This document shows positions 4,301 through 29,430 of a DNA stretch of 64,000 nt, piece after piece (the stretch's first letter is position 1; each line of letters opens with the position of its first letter). The translations under genes were made by a program, and so were the position numbers. Below the pieces are notes generated by a model that worked only from the letters and a program-made list of their open reading frames with translations, had not been told where the DNA came from and made no database searches. Source of the DNA: Owenia fusiformis (taxonomy: Eukaryota; Annelida; Polychaeta; Sabellida; Oweniidae). The stretch covers positions 1,614,001 through 1,678,000 of the forward strand of contig CAIIXF020000006.1 of assembly GCA_903813345.2 (NCBI GenBank). Reading direction: 5' to 3'.

Positions 4301-4977
4301 CATATGTTGATATTCCCAATCCTTTATAAAGGTCTTTTGTAAAAATGTAAGAAATCTTGGAAACATTTACCCTACTTCAATCGATGCATAACATTCTAAT
4401 GTATCGTTTTTGCGCATTGGCAAGACTTCCTATTCAGACGACATGGAAAATAACAAGTTCATTTTCATTTTTAAACAATAATCTAAATATGCCTTAAAGT
4501 TGTACAATTTGGAGGCTTTTGTTGCATTTTCTTATTATATATTAGTAGTATTTTCCTATAATTATAACCATATTTTCAAAATCACTCCATTTAGGGTTAC
4601 CAAATAATACTGTAAGCAGAGAAAAATTATTTGTTAAAATGACAAAGATATGACGAAAATGGAATAAAGGATTCCGTTTTTGACCACTTTGTACATTGCC
4701 TTTGCCGAATATCTGTCTGTAACCCAAATTCTTAAATAATGATTGACCAGTGTGTACTACATTTGTATATTGTATTGGGTTGTATTTTATTGTATGATAT
4801 ACCACCAATGAAGTTTAGCGCGCGATACCTCGATATATGCAGTCGTAATTTACGCAAGACAGACCATGAAACCCCTCCTTGAAGGAGTCCCGTGTTTTTT
4901 ATATGCATTCTTACATAGACCACGTCAAGCACCCTGACCTGAAGTACTTAACACAACAAGTAAATTAATCTTGCCTG

Positions 4978-5030
4978 AACCAGGAATCGAAACCGTGACT
5001 CACCTCTCTACCGCTGAGCTACGGGATTAC
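4978..5030 (-). repeat. Degraded tRNA-derived sequence (probable SINE head)
   Basis: On the minus strand an A-box-like TAGCTCAGCGG (5011-5021) and a B-box-like GGTTTCGATTC (4984-4994) appear in the right order. Only about 16 bases separate them, too few for an anticodon arm, so this is not a functional tRNA gene. A decayed tRNA pseudogene or SINE head is the likely reading. I see no feature in the rest of 4301-5530. Confidence 0.5.
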
Positions 5031-5534
5031 TCCACAGATGTAGCGTGAAAAGGTAGAAGACAAAAAAAACTATATTCAAAATCAGGATGATGCTTGATGG
5101 AATTCCATTTTTATCAGTGCAATCAAAAGTGCAAATGTACAGACTTTACAATTTATTTTGTTTATCTCGTGTGTATATAATTTCATGTAAAAAGCATGAC
5201 GAATATATTTGGCTTACTACGAATATTTGACTTTTTGTTAAAGGTAGTCTTGAGTTTGAAATCTGTTTAAAATTTTTGAAAATTCGAATAGATGGCGGAA
5301 AAGCGGTCAGATCTTTTGATTTTGGTGGCTCTTTTTTCTTGAGACATTTCGAGTTACAAGGAGAACATATTGAGCTATAACAAATGTGTTTTTTAGAACT
5401 TTGACTATAGCGGATTAGCTATAGCTAGCGATATTTCATTCTTTGAAAAATTTGAATATGTGGTTAGGTAACTGAAATCTTTTTTCATGTTGACCCGAAG
5501 ATTTCCATGTTTTTCAATTGAATTGTATTCACCC

Positions 5535-7664: not shown

Positions 7665-8083
7665 CTACCGACTAGCACACTGTGTCCTCCAGTCATACCA
7701 AGAACTGATCTTGTATACCTTGTTAAATGAAATATTCTGTCTTCTTTCATTTAGCACAGTGCATAGTTTACAAACATTATCAGGATTTTGTAGACCTGCT
7801 GCAGATGTGAACTGATAAAGTTCCTTCCATTTAAAATATGAATTATAAAGCGTCTCGCTCTGTGAAACTTTCGTGATATATTGAGCCAAGTATTTTGTTG
7901 ACTTGAAATTATCCGCATGAATGAACGAGTTTGGTGGGAGATGTTTCCCATATTCAACTTTAGATCCTTGTACGACAGGGATTAAGTTTTCTTGAAATGA
8001 ATTTTTCCAAAGTTTTTCTGTGATGTAGTCTTTGCAGTCAGCATTTTCCAGGGCCATGTAAAACATATATGGGTGGGTGCCAC
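7665..8083 (-). CDS. Fucosyltransferase terminal exon
   Basis: This exon encodes the last 138 residues, including the GDP-fucose-binding DYITEKLW segment and the F-x-W end of the domain, and stops with TAG at 7667-7665. The acceptor is CTTTCAG at 8090-8084. That acceptor is itself the first unit of the minisatellite at 8084-8990. Confidence 0.9.
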
Positions 8084-11000
8084 CTGAAAGTATAGACAGT
8101 TGGCTGACATACGCATGTATATGGCTGAGTGTCATCTGAAAATATAAACGGTTATTTACAGGACCATGGTTAACATTTATGGTTGAGCTCTATCTGAAAG
8201 TATACTATTAGACTGTTATTTACAGGACCAGGGTAAACATTTATGGCTGAGCTCTATCTGAAAGTATACTATTAGACTGTTATTTACAGGACCAGTGTAA
8301 ACATTTATGGTTGAGCTTTATCTGAAAGTATACTATTAGACTGTTATTTACAGGACCAGTGTAAACATTTATGGTTGAGCATCATCTGAAAGTGTAGACA
8401 GTTAATATGTACAGGACTAGGGTAACATTTATGGTTGAGCTTTATCTGAAAGTATACTATTAGACTGTTATTTACAGGACCAGTGTAAACATATATGGTT
8501 GAGCATCATCTGAAAGTGTAGACAGTTAATATGTACAGGACTAGGGTAACATTTATGGTTGAGCTCTATCTGAAAGTATACTATTAGACTGTTATGTACA
8601 GGACCAGTGTAAACATATATGGTTGAGCATCATCTGAAAGTGTAGACAGTTAATATGTACAGGACTAGGGTAACATTTATGGTTGAGCTCTATCTGAAAG
8701 TATACTATTAGACTGTTATGTACAGGACCAGTGTAAACATATATGGTTGAGCATCATCTGAAAGTGTAGACAGTTAATATGTACAGGACTAGGGTAACAT
8801 TTATGGTTGAGCTCTATCTGAAAGTATACAGGACCGAGGTCAAAATATATGGTTGAATAGATATGAATGGGCATGAGCTTTACCTAGTTAAACCAATGTA
8901 AACATATATGGCTGAGCTCTTCCTAAACGTATAGACAGTCATGTACAGGACCAGTGTAAACATATATGGTTGAGCATCATCTGAAAGTGAGACACGTTAC
9001 GCACTGCTCAGATTGAGGAATTGGGCCTTAGAAAGGTCAGATGTTTCATTCAATGGTGGTCCCGTAGGGTTGATGCTCTGATTGCAGCACAAAGAGGACA
9101 AAACGCATATAAGTGCTATCATTTGATAGACATCCTCCGATCACAGGGCTTCAAAATCCAGAATATCTTCTTTCTTTTTACAGGACACTTCAATCTTCAT
9201 GACCAGATGTTTATTTTGTTTGCTCTGTTTTACATGACGATTTGGATCGGGGTGTTTTGAAAATGCTAAAATTCTTAGCGTACCCCTGTTTAAATAACAG
9301 TAATTTTCTAAACTTAAACGTGAATATTTTTTCCCCAAAAAATGTTGATTTGTAAATGAAATATGTGGTTATGATTTGCCCAGAAAATAAATATCTAAAC
9401 CGCCTTAAAATAAATGTTCTCTTACTCCAAAATTTGAATTCTGAGCTGCCACATCTAATATTCCATATTTATGAGCAACAGTGTATAATAGAGCCAACAA
9501 AAAGGTTCTAATAAACAAGCCCGATGTCCTGTAAAGAACACCTATTCTTATTATTGAAAATGGATTTTACCAATACTTTCCCACATGAATCTAGTTTGTT
9601 GAGTTCTTCTCTGAAAGTGAGGATTTCAGCAAGGGTGCATTGACTATAACATGTTGGTATACACCATTTACTAGAATCGGGATACCATTATGTATGACAC
9701 CGTAGATAGATACATTCATGCAGGATAGTATTGCAGGGATCCATTTTAATAGTAAAAATAGGGGTCCTTAAACAGAACATTAAAGCTTAACTGAGGCCTT
9801 TTAAGATTTTGAGTTGGTACTGGTGAAAATATATAGAGTTATAGTATATACTGTACTTTCATCATTAACCTTCCGTTGAAATAGGATAGTTATATCGATG
9901 CATGTAATGTGATATTGATTAAAACTAAACCTTGTCAGCAAAGTTTGGGCAAATATAACATGGCATAGGTCAATTAGGGATTTATTCCAGAAAATATATT
10001 GCATTTTTTGAAATTCCACATTTGCTAATGCATATCTGATATTTAAAACTTTGGGAACCATAAATAGCTTAGGCGAAGTGATAGGCTAAAGTCTAGTTGA
10101 ATCGAGTTAGAAAATTTTGTAAGGTATTATTTGCGGGCAAATTTACGATAATTGCTATTTTAATGTCAACACAACTGGTTATCATGACCGTGAAAAAATT
10201 GCTTGTTAATTCTTAAATTTGTATACCAAAAGGATCGACAGATATGCCATAAACAACAAATGCTCATCTCAAAAATGAAATTTTATTTTTTGGGATGAGA
10301 TTTACGTGAATCACCCAATAATTTTTCATTTCAAAGATTTTTGATTGGTTTTGCTTAATGAAATATACCTACCCTATTATACATAAAATGTAATTTCATA
10401 AAACACCTTATAAAAGATGCAGAATATCCTAGCTGTCTCCGATTGCAAACTTTTTGGAGAAACCGACATCATGTTTTCTGCGTTTTTAACTACCAAGAGT
10501 GACGAGAATTCTCGTCGTCTCAGAAATGACCTTGAAAGCCAGAGTGACGAGATACTCCGTCACAAAATTTGTCACTAAAATTGCTCTCATTTGAACAATT
10601 GTCATTTGATTTACACAACAATTGATTTCAGATGTCTAGAAATAATCTCGGTCGTCTAATTTTACTGCATCATCTGTTGTATATTTATGTACTAAAATCT
10701 CATTGATTGCAAAGGGTATTTTCGCTGACATGGTACTTCCACTTACAGGGCACTTCCGCTCACAAAACATCGCAACAATTTCTCTACTCAATTAATGAAT
10801 AAGTAAACTGTAAAATGTACATTTAATAGACTGTCAAAGATATCAATCTGTCAAAATATATCATTTGGCTGCCAATAAGGGAGTGCAAGAAAACAAAATG
10901 GATGACAGAAAATATATTGATGACAGATCGTATGAGTCTCATATGTCAACAAAAACTCAACTTATGCACATTTCACACTCGTTTGATGGTTTTGGTGAGC

Positions 11001-13549
11001 TAAGATGATTTACTAAAAAATTAACATTGGCAGATGTGTTCCCGTGGCAAAAGTACATATTTCCTGAAAGTTTTCAAAATTACCCTCACTTCGAGGCCTA
11101 AAATTGTCTGCTAGTTGGCCAGAGACCAATATTCTAGCAGAATTTGAGAACAGAATCGATTTTTTCGTTCTGCGTAGGGCAAACAATGATTTGAAATCTC
11201 TTTCAACCATTCTGTGAGTATAAGAATGGTCATAAGAGGCCCGTGGAGGGTCATGAATGAAAGAAAGCCCTCTGAAATTCCGTCAAAATTGCAGGTTATT
11301 TCTTCATTTTTTGCTAAAATTACATGATTTTCAGGGCCCTTATCTCAGTGAAATTGCTACCATTTAGCGATTTTTCATTTTTACAGGCTAGATACACGTG
11401 TCAGGTCGACAGAAACAGTAAGCATGTGTGATTTTTAAATTGCTACATTGTAGCAATATTTATTTCAAAATACAGGTGTGAGAGAAACTGCAATTTAGTT
11501 AGATTTGGGCGAAAATGGACAAATTTCAGTCAAAATCCTCGGGACACAGGGCCTTTGTCTTAGATTTAGTCAATGATGCAACTCTTAGTAGAAAGTGTGC
11601 CATATAGGGAATGAAAGCTGTTTGTCAGACGTATCATTTTCTTCAATAAACTCAGAGATAGTCAGGTTAGATTTGAGACGTCACAGTGGCAAAGTTAGAC
11701 TAGCATATTTAGACGTATTTGGGGTAGGGCAAATTAACCCTTTCTAGCCTAAATGGATAAATTTTTCACATATTCAGCCAGTTCCGACGTTTTTATGAAT
11801 TTTTGAACTAGAAATGATATTTTCTGCCAAAAAAAGTTGCAGAGACAAAAATCAGTGTGATGTCATAAAACATTAAGGTACGAGGTTCCATATCCATCCG
11901 CCAAAAGGTATGATAGTATATAGTCCATTTAAAAACTCGTGGTATTGTTCTAAATAACGCCATAGTTGGCTTCTAGGGTTGGCTTCTATTTGGTATCAAA
12001 ATAAAGAGGAGGAGTTCAACTTTCATTTGAATTACGAAAATAGCGACGTAGGTCAAAAATAGTTCCGACGTAAGCATGTTTACTACGCGTTTGCCCATCA
12101 TATCAGAATTGAGGAAGTGGTAGCAAACGCGAGTCACAATAAATGGACGCTGATATCTCAAAAAGTAACCTGACTCCCTATAATTTGATGTAGATCAATC
12201 GAACCCCTATATGAACAGGTACATTTTGATATATAACACTATGGGGGGGGGGTAAGCGTTTTATAGTTGGTCACGAACGCCATATGTGCAAAGTATTGGT
12301 ATGAATTTTCGAATTTGGTGTTGGATTACGGTACTCATACCCCAATGCTGCCTTAAGATAAGACAGTGTCGGCCTCAAAAAATTTTTGGGCACATTTTTT
12401 TCTTTGCCCACCCAAGGGGCACCTGACCCCCCCCCCCAGATCCGCCAGTGGCTTTAAAAGTATTGTTCCTTTTCTCAAGTTCCATTTACCTCGGCTTCAC
12501 CTTAAAGGCAGTTTGCATTCAGCAGGTCTAATTAAGTTTTTAAATATAATGTTAAATTGCAGTTAGAACCTGTGAAAAATGGAATAATTTATGGAATTTT
12601 GTATTATTCAAATATTTTACGATTCAAACTCTGCCAATATTACATTAATGTTATCACTTTAAATGTATGACTTACATTTTGTGCCCCGTTCGCAAGGTTT
12701 TCCACATCTTCCAAATATATCAATGGCTATATATTTCTGTAAATTCTTTACAAACTGCATCCGATTATTAACTGTTTCACAATTACTTACAACCCAGAGG
12801 ACACTGGCACCTTTATCTGTTTTATTACGTCTATTTTCCATGTAATAATTCTTCGAACTTGTTAGTTTAGACCTTAATATTCTTGGAACATATTTGCCAT
12901 ATGGCAAAGGCACATCTGAGCTTTGTTTGTACGTTGCTGTCAGGTTATAGAAACCATCCAAGAGTTTTGCGTATTTTGTGAAGTAATTCCTCGTTGGATT
13001 TTCTATTGAGAAAAATATGTAGTTCTGCCAAGAGAATCGGATCTGGGGAATAGGGTCACTAATCTTAAAGTCACTGCCCCACTGATGGAATAAGACTGCG
13101 TCACTTGATGCTATCCCTGCTCTAGATTTATCATAATGGAAACTACAGTGCTTTATAGAACAGTTAGACGTTTTCAGCGCAGGTTTTGTTTTGATATAAA
13201 ATCTCGTCTTGAAAAATGTAGTCCATATGAGAATTTTGATTTCTCTATCTTTCTTAGGTGCTGTCTTCTTGGCTTTTGTCTCCTGTATTCCCATGGCCAA
13301 GGCATTGTTTTTTAGTTCATCAGTAGCATTGTACACTTTGTATCCTCTATTTCTTAGTACCGTCAGTGCGTGAGTTTTGTGTGGTAATTGACGACGTTGA
13401 GTTTTGTCCATATCATATGTCTTCTTTATATTTAGAGGTTGGATGTGTTGCACTGTCAGGGAAATTGTTGAATTGGCTATAAGAAGCAGCGTAATCACCA
13501 TTATAGTGAATGTTAGACAAGAGACAAAAACTGGGAACAAATTCTGTAA
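7665..13549 (-). CDS. Alpha-1,3-fucosyltransferase-like gene (GT10), two visible exons
   Basis: This gene encodes a GT10-family fucosyltransferase, a type II Golgi enzyme that moves fucose from GDP-fucose onto N-acetylglucosamine-containing glycans. Exon 13549-12676 joins exon 8083-7665 in phase 1, rebuilding the Cys codon. From the ATG at 13501 the protein would be 414 residues. Visible features are a hydrophobic signal anchor at the start, a stem, several N-glycosylation sequons, the YKQSSDVPLPYG motif near 190-202, VVSNC near 236-241, GRCG near 264-267, and FYMALENADCKDYITEKLW at the start of the last exon. The C-terminus has the CxxC pair expected in the family. The open frame continues upstream to an acceptor-like TTTTGTTACAG at about 13550, and the hydrophobic segment also extends there, so a short 5' exon probably supplies the real start. 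Acceptor specificity cannot be read from sequence. Confidence 0.9.
8084..8990. repeat. Minisatellite, ~15 units of 60-68 bp, copied from a splice acceptor
   Basis: Each unit has the consensus order ACAGGACCAGTGTAAACAT, TATGGTTGAGC and TCTGAAAGTATA or TCTGAAAGTGTAGACAGTTA. Units recur near 8131, 8191, 8257, 8320, 8384, 8444, 8509, 8569, 8633, 8693, 8757 and 8817. Degenerate units lie to about 8990. From about 8384 two variants alternate, giving a ~124-bp higher-order period. The unit touching the exon supplies the real acceptor (minus strand ...CTATACTTTCAG). All other units therefore carry an acceptor-like CTTTCAG inside the same intron. Confidence 0.9.
9000..12240. other. Fucosyltransferase intron, no gene seen
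   Basis: This AT-rich stretch is the rest of the 4.6-kb intron (8084-12675). Short open frames here have no recognisable similarity. It includes the perfect 16-bp palindrome GACGAGAATTCTCGTC (10501-10516). A G run lies at about 12242-12251 just beyond it. Confidence 0.6.
12427..12451. repeat. Poly-C tract plus GATCCGCCAGTGG motif
   Basis: Eleven C (12427-12437) are followed by AGATCCGCCAGTGG. The arrangement matches the tract and motif near 2053-2103. It is probably an end fragment of a dispersed transposon lying in the fucosyltransferase intron. Confidence 0.45.
12676..13549 (-). CDS. Fucosyltransferase exon with signal anchor and most of the catalytic domain
   Basis: This exon holds the transmembrane anchor, stem and N-terminal part of the GT10 domain. 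It ends at the consensus donor GTAAGT (12675-12670) in phase 1. Reading through the donor would end after only six more codons. The first in-frame ATG is at 13501-13499. The bases upstream resemble a splice acceptor, so the left limit used here is the putative acceptor junction. Confidence 0.85.
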
Positions 13550-14409
13550 CAAAATATAACAATTTTCAGATACATTATCCTCGAGGTGTTAAAAGGATCG
13601 TCAATTTTCTCCCTTTTATTGCACAAGATTTTAAGGAAATTATAAAGTTTCCAGTACTTTGGCTTTATCATCGGGCTTCATGGAATATCACTTGTGCAAA
13701 ATTCACCTCAATATTCACCTCAATAGAATTAAATATTTGTATGATATTAGGTTTTCAAACCTCATCGCATTTCAGCGCTGTTCCACTTTCAGAGGTTATT
13801 AGTACTATTACTATGTATGATAACGTTTTATCTTTTAAAGTCGATAATAAAGCCCCATTCAAAGGATTTTATTCTAGGGTCAGAATATGCTTGTTGTCTT
13901 GAAAATATGACTGCTTTGAATCATGGTTTAATTAAATTAATACATCATTGAATTAGCCCCTCGGATACAGTTCATAATAATCAACTTTAGTGTGTCAATA
14001 GTCTTACATTTTTGAATGAAATGTTGTTCATATTTTTCATAGTCACGAGTCTTTTGTTCTAGTTTGACATCATGTCCTTCCACTGTAACCTCGTATAATT
14101 CAAATTCTCATTTGAACCTCAAAAATGATGTGAAATGCGAGAAAGAGGTGGTTTTGGAAATAAACGATCAGACAATTAGCCTATGTGATCATAATCGGTA
14201 AACATGTTAACTCTCTCGCAATATTATTTTCAATTATACAGACTTCCTGGTCTTCGCTGTCCATCTCGACGCTTTTTTCTTTATTTCTTTTCAAAGCACC
14301 ATTTTTGGTGTAGGAAGCTATTTTGAACATAAATGTTTTTGAACAATGATATTTTCTTTGTGCCTTTGTGCCACGATGTATCACTAACACCATTTGCACA
14401 GTGTCTATC

Positions 14410-15002: not shown

Positions 15003-15200
15003 GGCGAATTCCTGCTTTAAGCAGCCATTTTGAATTTTCCGAGGCACAAATAAGAAAAACAATACCATTATTGCAATACACTCTAAAATTCCTTCAATTT
15101 GAGTATAATTTTAGCCATACTTCTAAGAGATCTGAAAACCATTGCGAAATCCCACATTAGGCGGCCATTTTGAGTTTTACGAGGCCCGAATCAGAAAAAT
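15003..15200 (+). repeat. Two-copy ~142-bp tandem repeat beside a LINE fragment
   Basis: A block with GCGGCCATTTTGAGTTTTAC, GAGGC and AGAAAAA at about 15145-15200 resembles the block at about 15003-15058 (GCAGCCATTTTGAATTTTCC, GAGGC, AGAAAAA). The second copy runs directly into the reverse-transcriptase reading frame, so it may mark the junction of the truncated element. Confidence 0.6.
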
Positions 15201-15735
15201 ACCTTTTAATAATGAAAATGTCCCTGCTCTGCTTTTTGCAGATGATATCGTCCTTTTGGCTGAATCTGAAGGGGAATTGAACAAAATGTTGCAAATTGCA
15301 AATAAATTTTCACTAAAATGGGGCATTAAATATAGCCCAAAAAAGTCAAAAGTAATGGTGATAGGTAAGCGCATCAATAAAGAAAAGATTTGGCATCTTG
15401 GTGATCTTCAACTAACTGAAGTTCAAAACTATAAATATCTGGGGGTCTACTTTGATAGGACATTAAAGGACACCTATCACATAGATGCCTTCCTTAAGTC
15501 AAAAGCTAAACGCATGCACGGCATGTTGTGTTCAACTCTGAGTAAACACTGTAATGCAAAACGCATAAGCTTTGGTGATACTATATATAATTCAATGTTT
15601 GTACCTGCAATTTTGCATGGTTGTAGTACCTTATGTTTTATGTTTTTGATAGCTTGCCAAGTGTCCATTCTTTAAAAACAATAGAGAAACAATGTACTTT
15701 CCTTTTGATAGAACCACACATTCTTTAAAATAAAC
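15175..15735 (+). pseudogene. Non-LTR retrotransposon (LINE) reverse-transcriptase fragment
   Basis: The frame encodes the polymerase core of a non-LTR reverse transcriptase: ALLFADDIVLLAE with the FADD catalytic box at 15235-15246, then the conserved KYLGVYFD block. The upstream palm and endonuclease domains are absent, so it is 5'-truncated. The original frame ends early at 15675. The family-like continuation (LPSVHSLKTIEKQ) is found in another frame, indicating a frameshift near 15630-15645, and it then stops near 15730. This is a dead copy. The clade cannot be assigned from this fragment. Confidence 0.85.
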
Positions 15736-27556: not shown

Positions 27557-27888
27557 TAGGCGAGTGGGAGATCCAGCAAAAAGGCCTTATTTGTTGACCT
27601 TAATTAAGATAGCTTGCAACCGCATGAATCATACCTGACTATCATAATATGAATATGTAGATTTCAAAAATGACAATAATAAAAATTGAAAAATGGCCGA
27701 TCACTATGGAAACGGGACGCAAAAGCCACGCCCACTTTTTAAATTTCTTACTTGGTGGTAAATACATTTTAGACTGTAACTTTCTCGATTTTTAACAAAT
27801 CTTCTCATTATTGGTATCTGCTGAAGCGTAATAATGAGTCCTTTCACCTCAAGCATAAATTATGTGAATTCGCTCATTTGCATATCCA

Positions 27889-29430
27889 TTATGACATCAT
27901 AACCCTTCTTTTGGCCTCAATTTTCCATACAGTTGCAACAAAGTAACATTGTTTTATTAGTTACACTTCTTAAAAATGGATAAAAGTGGGTAAATGTAGT
28001 GCCAATACAAGCAAGAGTATGTCGGCTTTTCGGATATACTGATATTGAAGGCTGCATGTTGGTTAGAATAACATAAAAACTCGTTGCCATGGTTACCATG
28101 AACTTTTCAGTAATTTAGGCAAAAAAAACGTTTTGGACTGTAACTTTCTTTGTTTTTAAGCAATCTAAGCATTATTGGTTACAGAAGAAGCGTAATAATA
28201 AGTTCTTTCACCGCAAGCATAAATTATGTTAATTGGCTCATTTGCGTATCCATTATGATGTCATAGCCCTTCTTTTGGCCTCGATTTTCCATATATTTAC
28301 AATAAAATAACTGTGTTTTATTAGTTAAACTTCTTAAAAATGGATGAAAGTAGGTAAATACAGTGCCAATACAAGCAAGAGCATGTCGGCTTTTCCGATA
28401 TACTGATATTGAAGGTAGCATGTTGGATAGAATATCATAAAATCTCGTTGCCATGGTTACTGTGAACTTTTCAGCAATTTAGGCAATAAATACTTTTTGG
28501 ACTGTAACTTTCTTAGTTTTTAAGCAATCTTAGCATTATTGGTATCAGAAGAAGCGTAATAATAAGTTCTTTCACCGCAAGCATAAATTATGTTAATTGG
28601 CTCATTTGCGTATCCATTATGACGTCATAGCCCTTCTTTTGGCCTCGATTTTCCATATATTTACAATAAAATAACAGTGTTTTATTAGTTAAACTTCTTA
28701 AAAATGGATGAAAGTAGGTAAATACAGTGCCAATACAAACAAGAGTATGTCAGCTTTTCGGATATACTGATATTGAAGGCTGCATGTTGGTTAGAATAAC
28801 ATAAAAACTCGTTGCCATGGTTACCGCGAACTTTTCAGCAATTTAGGCAATAAAAACATTTTGGACTGTAACTTTCTTTGTTTTTAAGCAATCTTAGCAT
28901 TATTGGTATCAGAAGAAGCGTAATAATAAGTTCTTTCACATCCTGCATAAATTATGTAAATTAGCTTTATATTTACATATACATTATGACGTCATAACCT
29001 TGCTTTATCATCAATATTCCATATATTAACAATATGATAAGATTGTTTTAATGGCCTCACGTCTTAATAATGGTTAAAAGTAGGTATATGTATTGCCAAT
29101 ACAAAGAAGAGTATGTCAATCATCTAGATATACTGATAGATTAAAGTCTTCATGTTGGTAAGCATACCATAAACACTCATTCCCATGGTTATGCATGTAC
29201 TTTTTAGGCGATTAATCCTATTTTGACTAACTTTCTTGGTCTTATATAAATCGATTCTGGTATCAGAGAAGAGTAATAATAAATTTTTCACCTCAAGCAT
29301 AAATCATGTAAATATGGTCATTTGTTTATCCATTATGACATCATAACCATTGTTTTGGCATCAATATTCTATGTGTGAACAATATAATAAAGACACTTTT
29401 AAAACTATTGCCAATACAAAGAAGAGCATA
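27889..29430. repeat. Tandem array of ~362-bp units (4-5 copies)
   Basis: ATTATGACGTCATA-type blocks recur at about 27889, 28251, 28615, 28982 and 29332. Each is followed by TTTTGGCCTC, AAAATGGAT, GCCAATACAA, GATATACTGATATTGAAGG and CGTTGCCATGGTTACC. The first three units are close copies and the last two are decayed. The inverted end at 34265 contains single related blocks but no array. Open frames here (27917-28099, 28224-28454) are repeat by-products. Confidence 0.88.

Follow-up and report, generated by a model that had tools for sequence, protein, structure and literature searches.

A mirage-type minisatellite probably derived from a duplicated 3' splice junction in a fucosyltransferase gene of Owenia fusiformis

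We analysed a stretch of 64,000 nucleotides from the 498-Mb genome of the annelid Owenia fusiformis (hereafter the window), in which a fucosyltransferase gene on the minus strand carries a long tandem array directly in front of its last coding exon (Table 1). PF17039 and PF00852 both score above their cut-offs, placing the gene in family GT10. The upstream coding exon was delimited by its open frame, hence 13588 is a frame limit and may not be the 5' boundary of the exon. At its other end lies a T|GTAAGT donor, the G being at 12675, and joining this donor to the AG at 8085-8084 gives, as read from the sequence, a Cys codon split in phase 1 (T|GT). The terminal exon then supplies two nucleotides of the split codon, 138 codons and a TAG stop (7667-7665). 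An AG in the same phase is present in 21/21 two-exon open-frame paralogs, all of them picked for having this intron, and the spacing between AG and the YxFY codons is 8 nt in 17 of these and 14 nt in a clade of four genes, to which the window gene and its relatives discussed below belong. Compared with the most closely related copy, on contig C8, the last exon shows dS 0.53, dN 0.11 and dN/dS 0.20 (Fisher p 2e-8); it is under purifying selection. Elsewhere in the window, an open frame at 15136-15675 contains FADDIVLLAES, which we take to be a reverse-transcriptase-like motif, and may represent a fragment of a LINE lying upstream of the gene, and a second large tandem array occupies 27759-29390 (364-bp unit, 4.5 copies, 84% matches).

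Table 1 Features of the window and of the related locus on contig C8
Feature	Position	Strand	Remarks
GT10 fucosyltransferase gene	window = contig C6:1,614,001-1,678,000	-	PF17039 and PF00852
Upstream coding exon	12676..13588	-	PF17039, E 2.1e-20; PF00852 positions 3-42
Terminal coding exon	7665..8083	-	PF00852 profile positions 57-179, E 2.1e-38
True 3' splice site AG	8084..8085	-	ctgtctatactttcag|GTGGCACC; phase 1
Mirage-type array	8086..8990	-	14 decoy acceptors and one partial unit
Decoys, nearest seven (first base after AG)	8135, 8193, 8257, 8321, 8385, 8445, 8509	-	
Decoys, farther seven (first base after AG)	8569, 8633, 8693, 8757, 8817, 8922, 8980	-	
Partial array unit	near 8826-8856	-	without recognisable acceptor
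Dispersed repeat	8984..9100		adjoins distal edge of array
C8 fucosyltransferase locus (L006-L008)	C8:35,688,179-35,710,111		three open first exons, one terminal exon found
Two inserted elements in C8 array	L008:3647-3925 and 4323-5455		inverted CAGGGTGTCCC and CAGGGTGGGCC ends

Each unit of the array is about 58-64 nt long and combines about 24 nt of intron end with about 35 nt resembling the start of the exon. The initial annotation correctly recognised the functional acceptor as the 3'-most unit of the array, missing that the units also reach ~35 nt into exon sequence. Its figure of about 14 decoy CTTTCAG sites is accurate for acceptors counted loosely (13-14) and too high for the exact motif: within the 900 bases before the acceptor, CTTTCAG occurs 13 times on the minus strand, i.e. 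as the true site and 12 decoys. The shorter TTTCAG occurs 14 times on this strand (the true site and 13 decoys, one of them reading TTTTCAG), and one further unit carries GTTTAG, giving 14 decoys in total. TRF reports the array at 8118-8829 with periods of 64 and 124 and 5.7 copies of the latter; this two-unit higher-order period arises because the units largely alternate as a 60/64-nt pair.

The homology of the units extends across the splice junction. The consensus of 13 decoy units is identical to the exon start at 22/35 positions 3' of the AG, and to the true junction at 35/51 positions when the 16 nt before the AG are included, with single units reaching 16-24/35 and the lowest value belonging to the decoy nearest to the exon, at 8135. 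None of the 6,235 other AGs on both strands of the window attains 22/35 or 35/51 (maxima 19 and 26, means 9.4 and 15.4, respectively), ruling out chance CTTTCAG motifs. As the units continue like the start of the exon, the array represents an amplified intron/exon junction and not merely an amplified acceptor. At its distal edge, the array meets a dispersed repeat with at least 34 further places in the genome at 87-90% identity (40 of 132 candidates scored), the matches covering query positions 1-117, 1-120, 5-117 or 1-110. The array meets the end of this repeat, and an insertion may have cut it there.

The genome contains at least 98 PF00852 matches. Arrays were examined at 22 two-exon loci with an intron at this position, namely the window, C8, 17 further loci (L009-L025) and another three (L026-L028, with in-frame stops in L028), and the other PF00852 matches were covered by DNA searches only. 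A profile of the unit matches four of the 22 loci: the window, C8, L010 (C1:56.27 Mb) and L009 (C6:22.0 Mb). L010 gives clear matches at its junction (E 1.1e-8) and at one decoy (E 1.4e-7), a second, partial unit scoring no better than chance (E 0.94); L009 has a clear genuine junction (E 1.9e-9) and a weak and doubtful decoy (E 0.0067). The clear decoy of L010 is identical to the exon start of the window gene at 28 of 33 aligned bases, identifying the exon as the source of the unit. In C8 and C1, too, the repeats directly adjoin the acceptor, in agreement with the placement of the array originally noted in the window. In a tree of 19 terminal exons (L026-L028 not included), the four genes form one clade with support of 98/99, within which the window and C8 are sisters (97/94), so that the junction was probably duplicated before the four genes split. 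The number of decoys in these sister genes runs from one clear case in C1 through 14 in the window to 24 profiled in the longest C8 array. In own-genome DNA searches, array units turned up nowhere but in these fucosyltransferase genes (40/132 and 4/4 candidates scored, hence lower bounds). We note that another fucosyltransferase locus, L025, has long arrays of AAATCTCCCGTA-like units at 1302-2568, without a match to the unit profile.

At C8, the three open first exons (frames of 539, 279 and 326 aa) have identical donor sequences at 35,689,692, 35,697,711 and 35,705,325, and are followed in this order by one unit (A1), an array (A2) and a longer array (A3). The TRF period is 58-59. The array reaches the acceptor and is broken up by two inserted elements whose inverted ends match. 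A single terminal exon lies at about 35,709,680-35,709,694; a tblastn search over 30 kb gave no second one, other matches having E-values of 0.093 or worse, and we rejected a hidden second terminal exon for these first exons. All pairs among the three C8 first exons and the window exon show dN/dS of 0.31-0.37, with Fisher p of 5e-4 for A2-A3 and 2e-6 for A1-A2. An open frame alone is weak evidence here, because neutral simulations leave the frame open in 17% of runs at 33 substitutions and in 5% at 60. This arrangement suggests alternative first exons that would share one last exon, as in UGT1A, where alternative first exons share one last exon. By eye, a short start exon (ATGAAGAATATGAAC...) precedes copies 2 and 3, and the first exon of copy 1 overlaps a 129-nt tandem repeat of 4.6 copies (L006:4387-4996), which lengthens its 539-aa frame.

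The units resemble one another mostly within genes. The unit tree comprises 56 of 65 profile matches, nine that fill under 45 of 60 columns having been dropped and the window decoy 8135 being absent. In this tree the four genuine junctions cluster together (local support 0.92), beside the exon-nearest decoys of C1 and C8 (0.58 and 0.88). Mean p-distances, genuine junctions included, are 0.137 within the window, 0.058 within C8-A2 and 0.131 within C8-A3, as compared to 0.184 between the window and C8-A3. With edge units excluded, the units evolve in concert, as judged from tree and distances on these 56 matches, with two exceptions: the only unit of C8-A1 is placed with those of the window, and a distal unit of the window is joined to a proximal one of C8-A3. 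The consensus units of the window and C8 differ at 5/60 positions only, although dS between the last exons is as high as stated above, and a short alignable intron piece next to the upstream exon shows 78% identity across 74 columns. Constraint on the units, exchange between the loci or an unrepresentative yardstick could account for this low divergence.

Translation continued from the upstream exon reaches a stop 0-33 codons into each of the 14 window decoys and 19-77 codons into each of the 16 TTTCAG decoys of C8-A3. In an acceptor matrix built from 17 paralogous sites, the true site of the window scores 11.2, 13 of its 14 decoys 2.4-8.3 and decoy 8135 10.9. All 16 TTTCAG decoys of C8-A3, in turn, score 10.2-12.9 versus 12.1 for the true acceptor, and L009 and L010 reach just 8.1 and 4.2 with their genuine acceptors. 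Owing to these overlaps, the 17-site matrix fails to separate true sites from decoys across the clade; local strength does not settle the choice of acceptor, which would have to be decided by exon context. The AG is intact in 13/13 profiled window decoys (and visible in the unprofiled 8135), in 11/12 of C8-A2 and in 17/24 of C8-A3. Its loss from the remaining seven C8-A3 decoys is in keeping with decoy AGs being dispensable, and selection on decoy AGs is not supported. With a stop no more than 33 codons behind every window decoy, and with purifying selection acting on the last exon, heavy use of these decoys appears unlikely.

Taken together, we propose as the probable explanation that a tandemly duplicated 3' splice junction gave rise to a mirage-type minisatellite, which was amplified separately in each gene and whose decoys are bypassed. 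A segment of ~58-64 nt, consisting of the intron end, the AG and ~35 nt from the start of the last exon, would have been tandemly duplicated in the ancestor of the clade, presumably once. Later amplification and extensive, if incomplete, homogenisation would have proceeded gene by gene, through unequal exchange or slippage. Observed directly are the content of the units, their confinement, within the set of loci examined, to a single clade, the differing copy numbers and the mostly gene-specific unit types. The 3'-most unit would remain the working acceptor because it alone precedes a real terminal exon, and the decoys would be bypassed because no exon is defined downstream of them. Occasional use of a decoy would produce a transcript with one of the stops found in the sequence, and would then constitute noise, not regulation. 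The array is probably harmless to splicing.

A regulatory role appears improbable in comparison. Here, the decoys would trap a fraction of transcripts, dependent on repeat number, in stop-containing mRNAs and thereby tune the dose of the enzyme, in line with the premature stops behind every window decoy and every C8-A3 TTTCAG decoy, with C8 decoys that score like the true site and with the persistence of arrays in sister genes. However, copy number ranges widely among these genes, 7/24 AGs have been lost in C8-A3, and arrays in lancelet Adh3, globin and troponin C are reported without mRNA disturbance (PMC3087553, PMC3902484). The structural half of the original interpretation stands, whereas shifted splicing, cryptic exons and dependence on repeat number are not demonstrated, considering the stops behind the decoys, the constrained exon and the mostly normal lancelet analogues. 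We give very little credence to the units being short cryptic exons, or ratchet points with juxtaposed acceptor and donor as in recursive splicing. The AG of a unit is indeed followed, after 33-34 nt, by donor-like GTACAT or GTAAAT, and many C8 units read CAG|GTAGAG; yet the donor-like sites, as read from the sequence, lack the +5 G, the 34-nt form breaks the frame, and the 33-nt form preserves the length, yet contains a TAA when read in this intron's phase (YRAQP followed by a stop). Moreover, 13/13 TTTCAG decoys in the window continue with AT and not GT, making ratcheting impossible there. Least credible of all is an unrelated satellite with TTTCAG that landed beside the exon by chance: polypyrimidine-AG motifs are common, but the exon-side homology of the units, the exon-like decoy in C1 and the confinement of units to fucosyltransferase loci in the own-genome searches, with their lower bounds, led us to reject it.

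Beyond the bypassed-decoy minisatellite favoured above, it is possible, if doubtful, that mirage arrays have served as recombination substrates. At C8, 35,697,723-35,698,979 is homologous to 35,706,184-35,707,446. The 5' part of the gene, comprising the large first exon, the start of the intron and the array, may have been duplicated without the last exon, in a block ending at the array. This would have left three selected first exons with one catalytic last exon, the transcripts from the earlier first exons skipping the decoy arrays.

The findings extend to a further animal genome what has been described in lancelets, and provide a natural series of sister genes that have the same junction with one clear decoy, 14, or 24 or more. 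With such a series one can test what leads the spliceosome to one acceptor among many that are nearly identical, and ask whether arrays at junctions give rise to new introns or to loci that share exons. Drosophila introns arising from tandem duplication are reportedly the subject of one paper (PMC2891723).

By analogy, the closest known kind is the mirage minisatellite of lancelets, described in Adh3, the globins BflGb6 and BflGb9 and troponin C, with similar repeats in PGBD5 (PMC3087553, PMC3902484). The Owenia array consists of head-to-tail minisatellite repeats with a boundary-spanning unit, a splice signal in many but not all units, and concerted evolution. The lancelet repeats likewise extend across an intron/exon boundary, carry AG/GT signals in many, not all, units and evolve in concert within a cluster once edge units are excluded (PMC3087553, PMC3902484), and in BflGb6 it is again the 3' end of an intron and the 5' part of an exon that are duplicated (PMC3087553). 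Unlike these, the present array resides in an annelid, whose genome has about 12 chromosome-sized contigs as against n = 18-20 in lancelets, and in a different gene family, has a unit of 58-64 nt at the last exon of the gene, and is common to several paralogs of one clade that differ greatly in copy number. The assembly gave no COX1 match; its 38 forkhead matches are spread over nine large contigs (C1, C3, C4, C5, C6, C8, C9, C10 and C11), with close groups on C8 and C10, a distribution consistent with the 35 Fox genes on 9 of 12 chromosomes and the tandem foxQ2 genes on two of them that are described for O. fusiformis under a different chromosome numbering (PMC9539403). Within the literature searched, including PMC12783039 and PMC3045353 and with subscription literature mostly outside, boundary-spanning acceptor arrays appear only in the two lancelet papers; minisatellites of earthworm metallothionein and of seabream are intronic and not at junctions. 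Turri 1995, represented by its title as cited in PMC4526556, concerns a splice-junction minisatellite that similarly offers many copies of a splice signal, differing in that it lies on the donor side and that its repeats, going by the title, do provide splice sites. As to the consequences for splicing, globin RT-PCR and Adh3 data are said not to show disturbed splicing in lancelets (PMC3087553), and Adh and troponin C are reported to splice normally, the same being only suggested for PGBD5 (PMC3902484). The globin paper also argues that such repeats can become exons or introns over time (PMC3087553), and repeats at splice junctions therefore need not stay inert.
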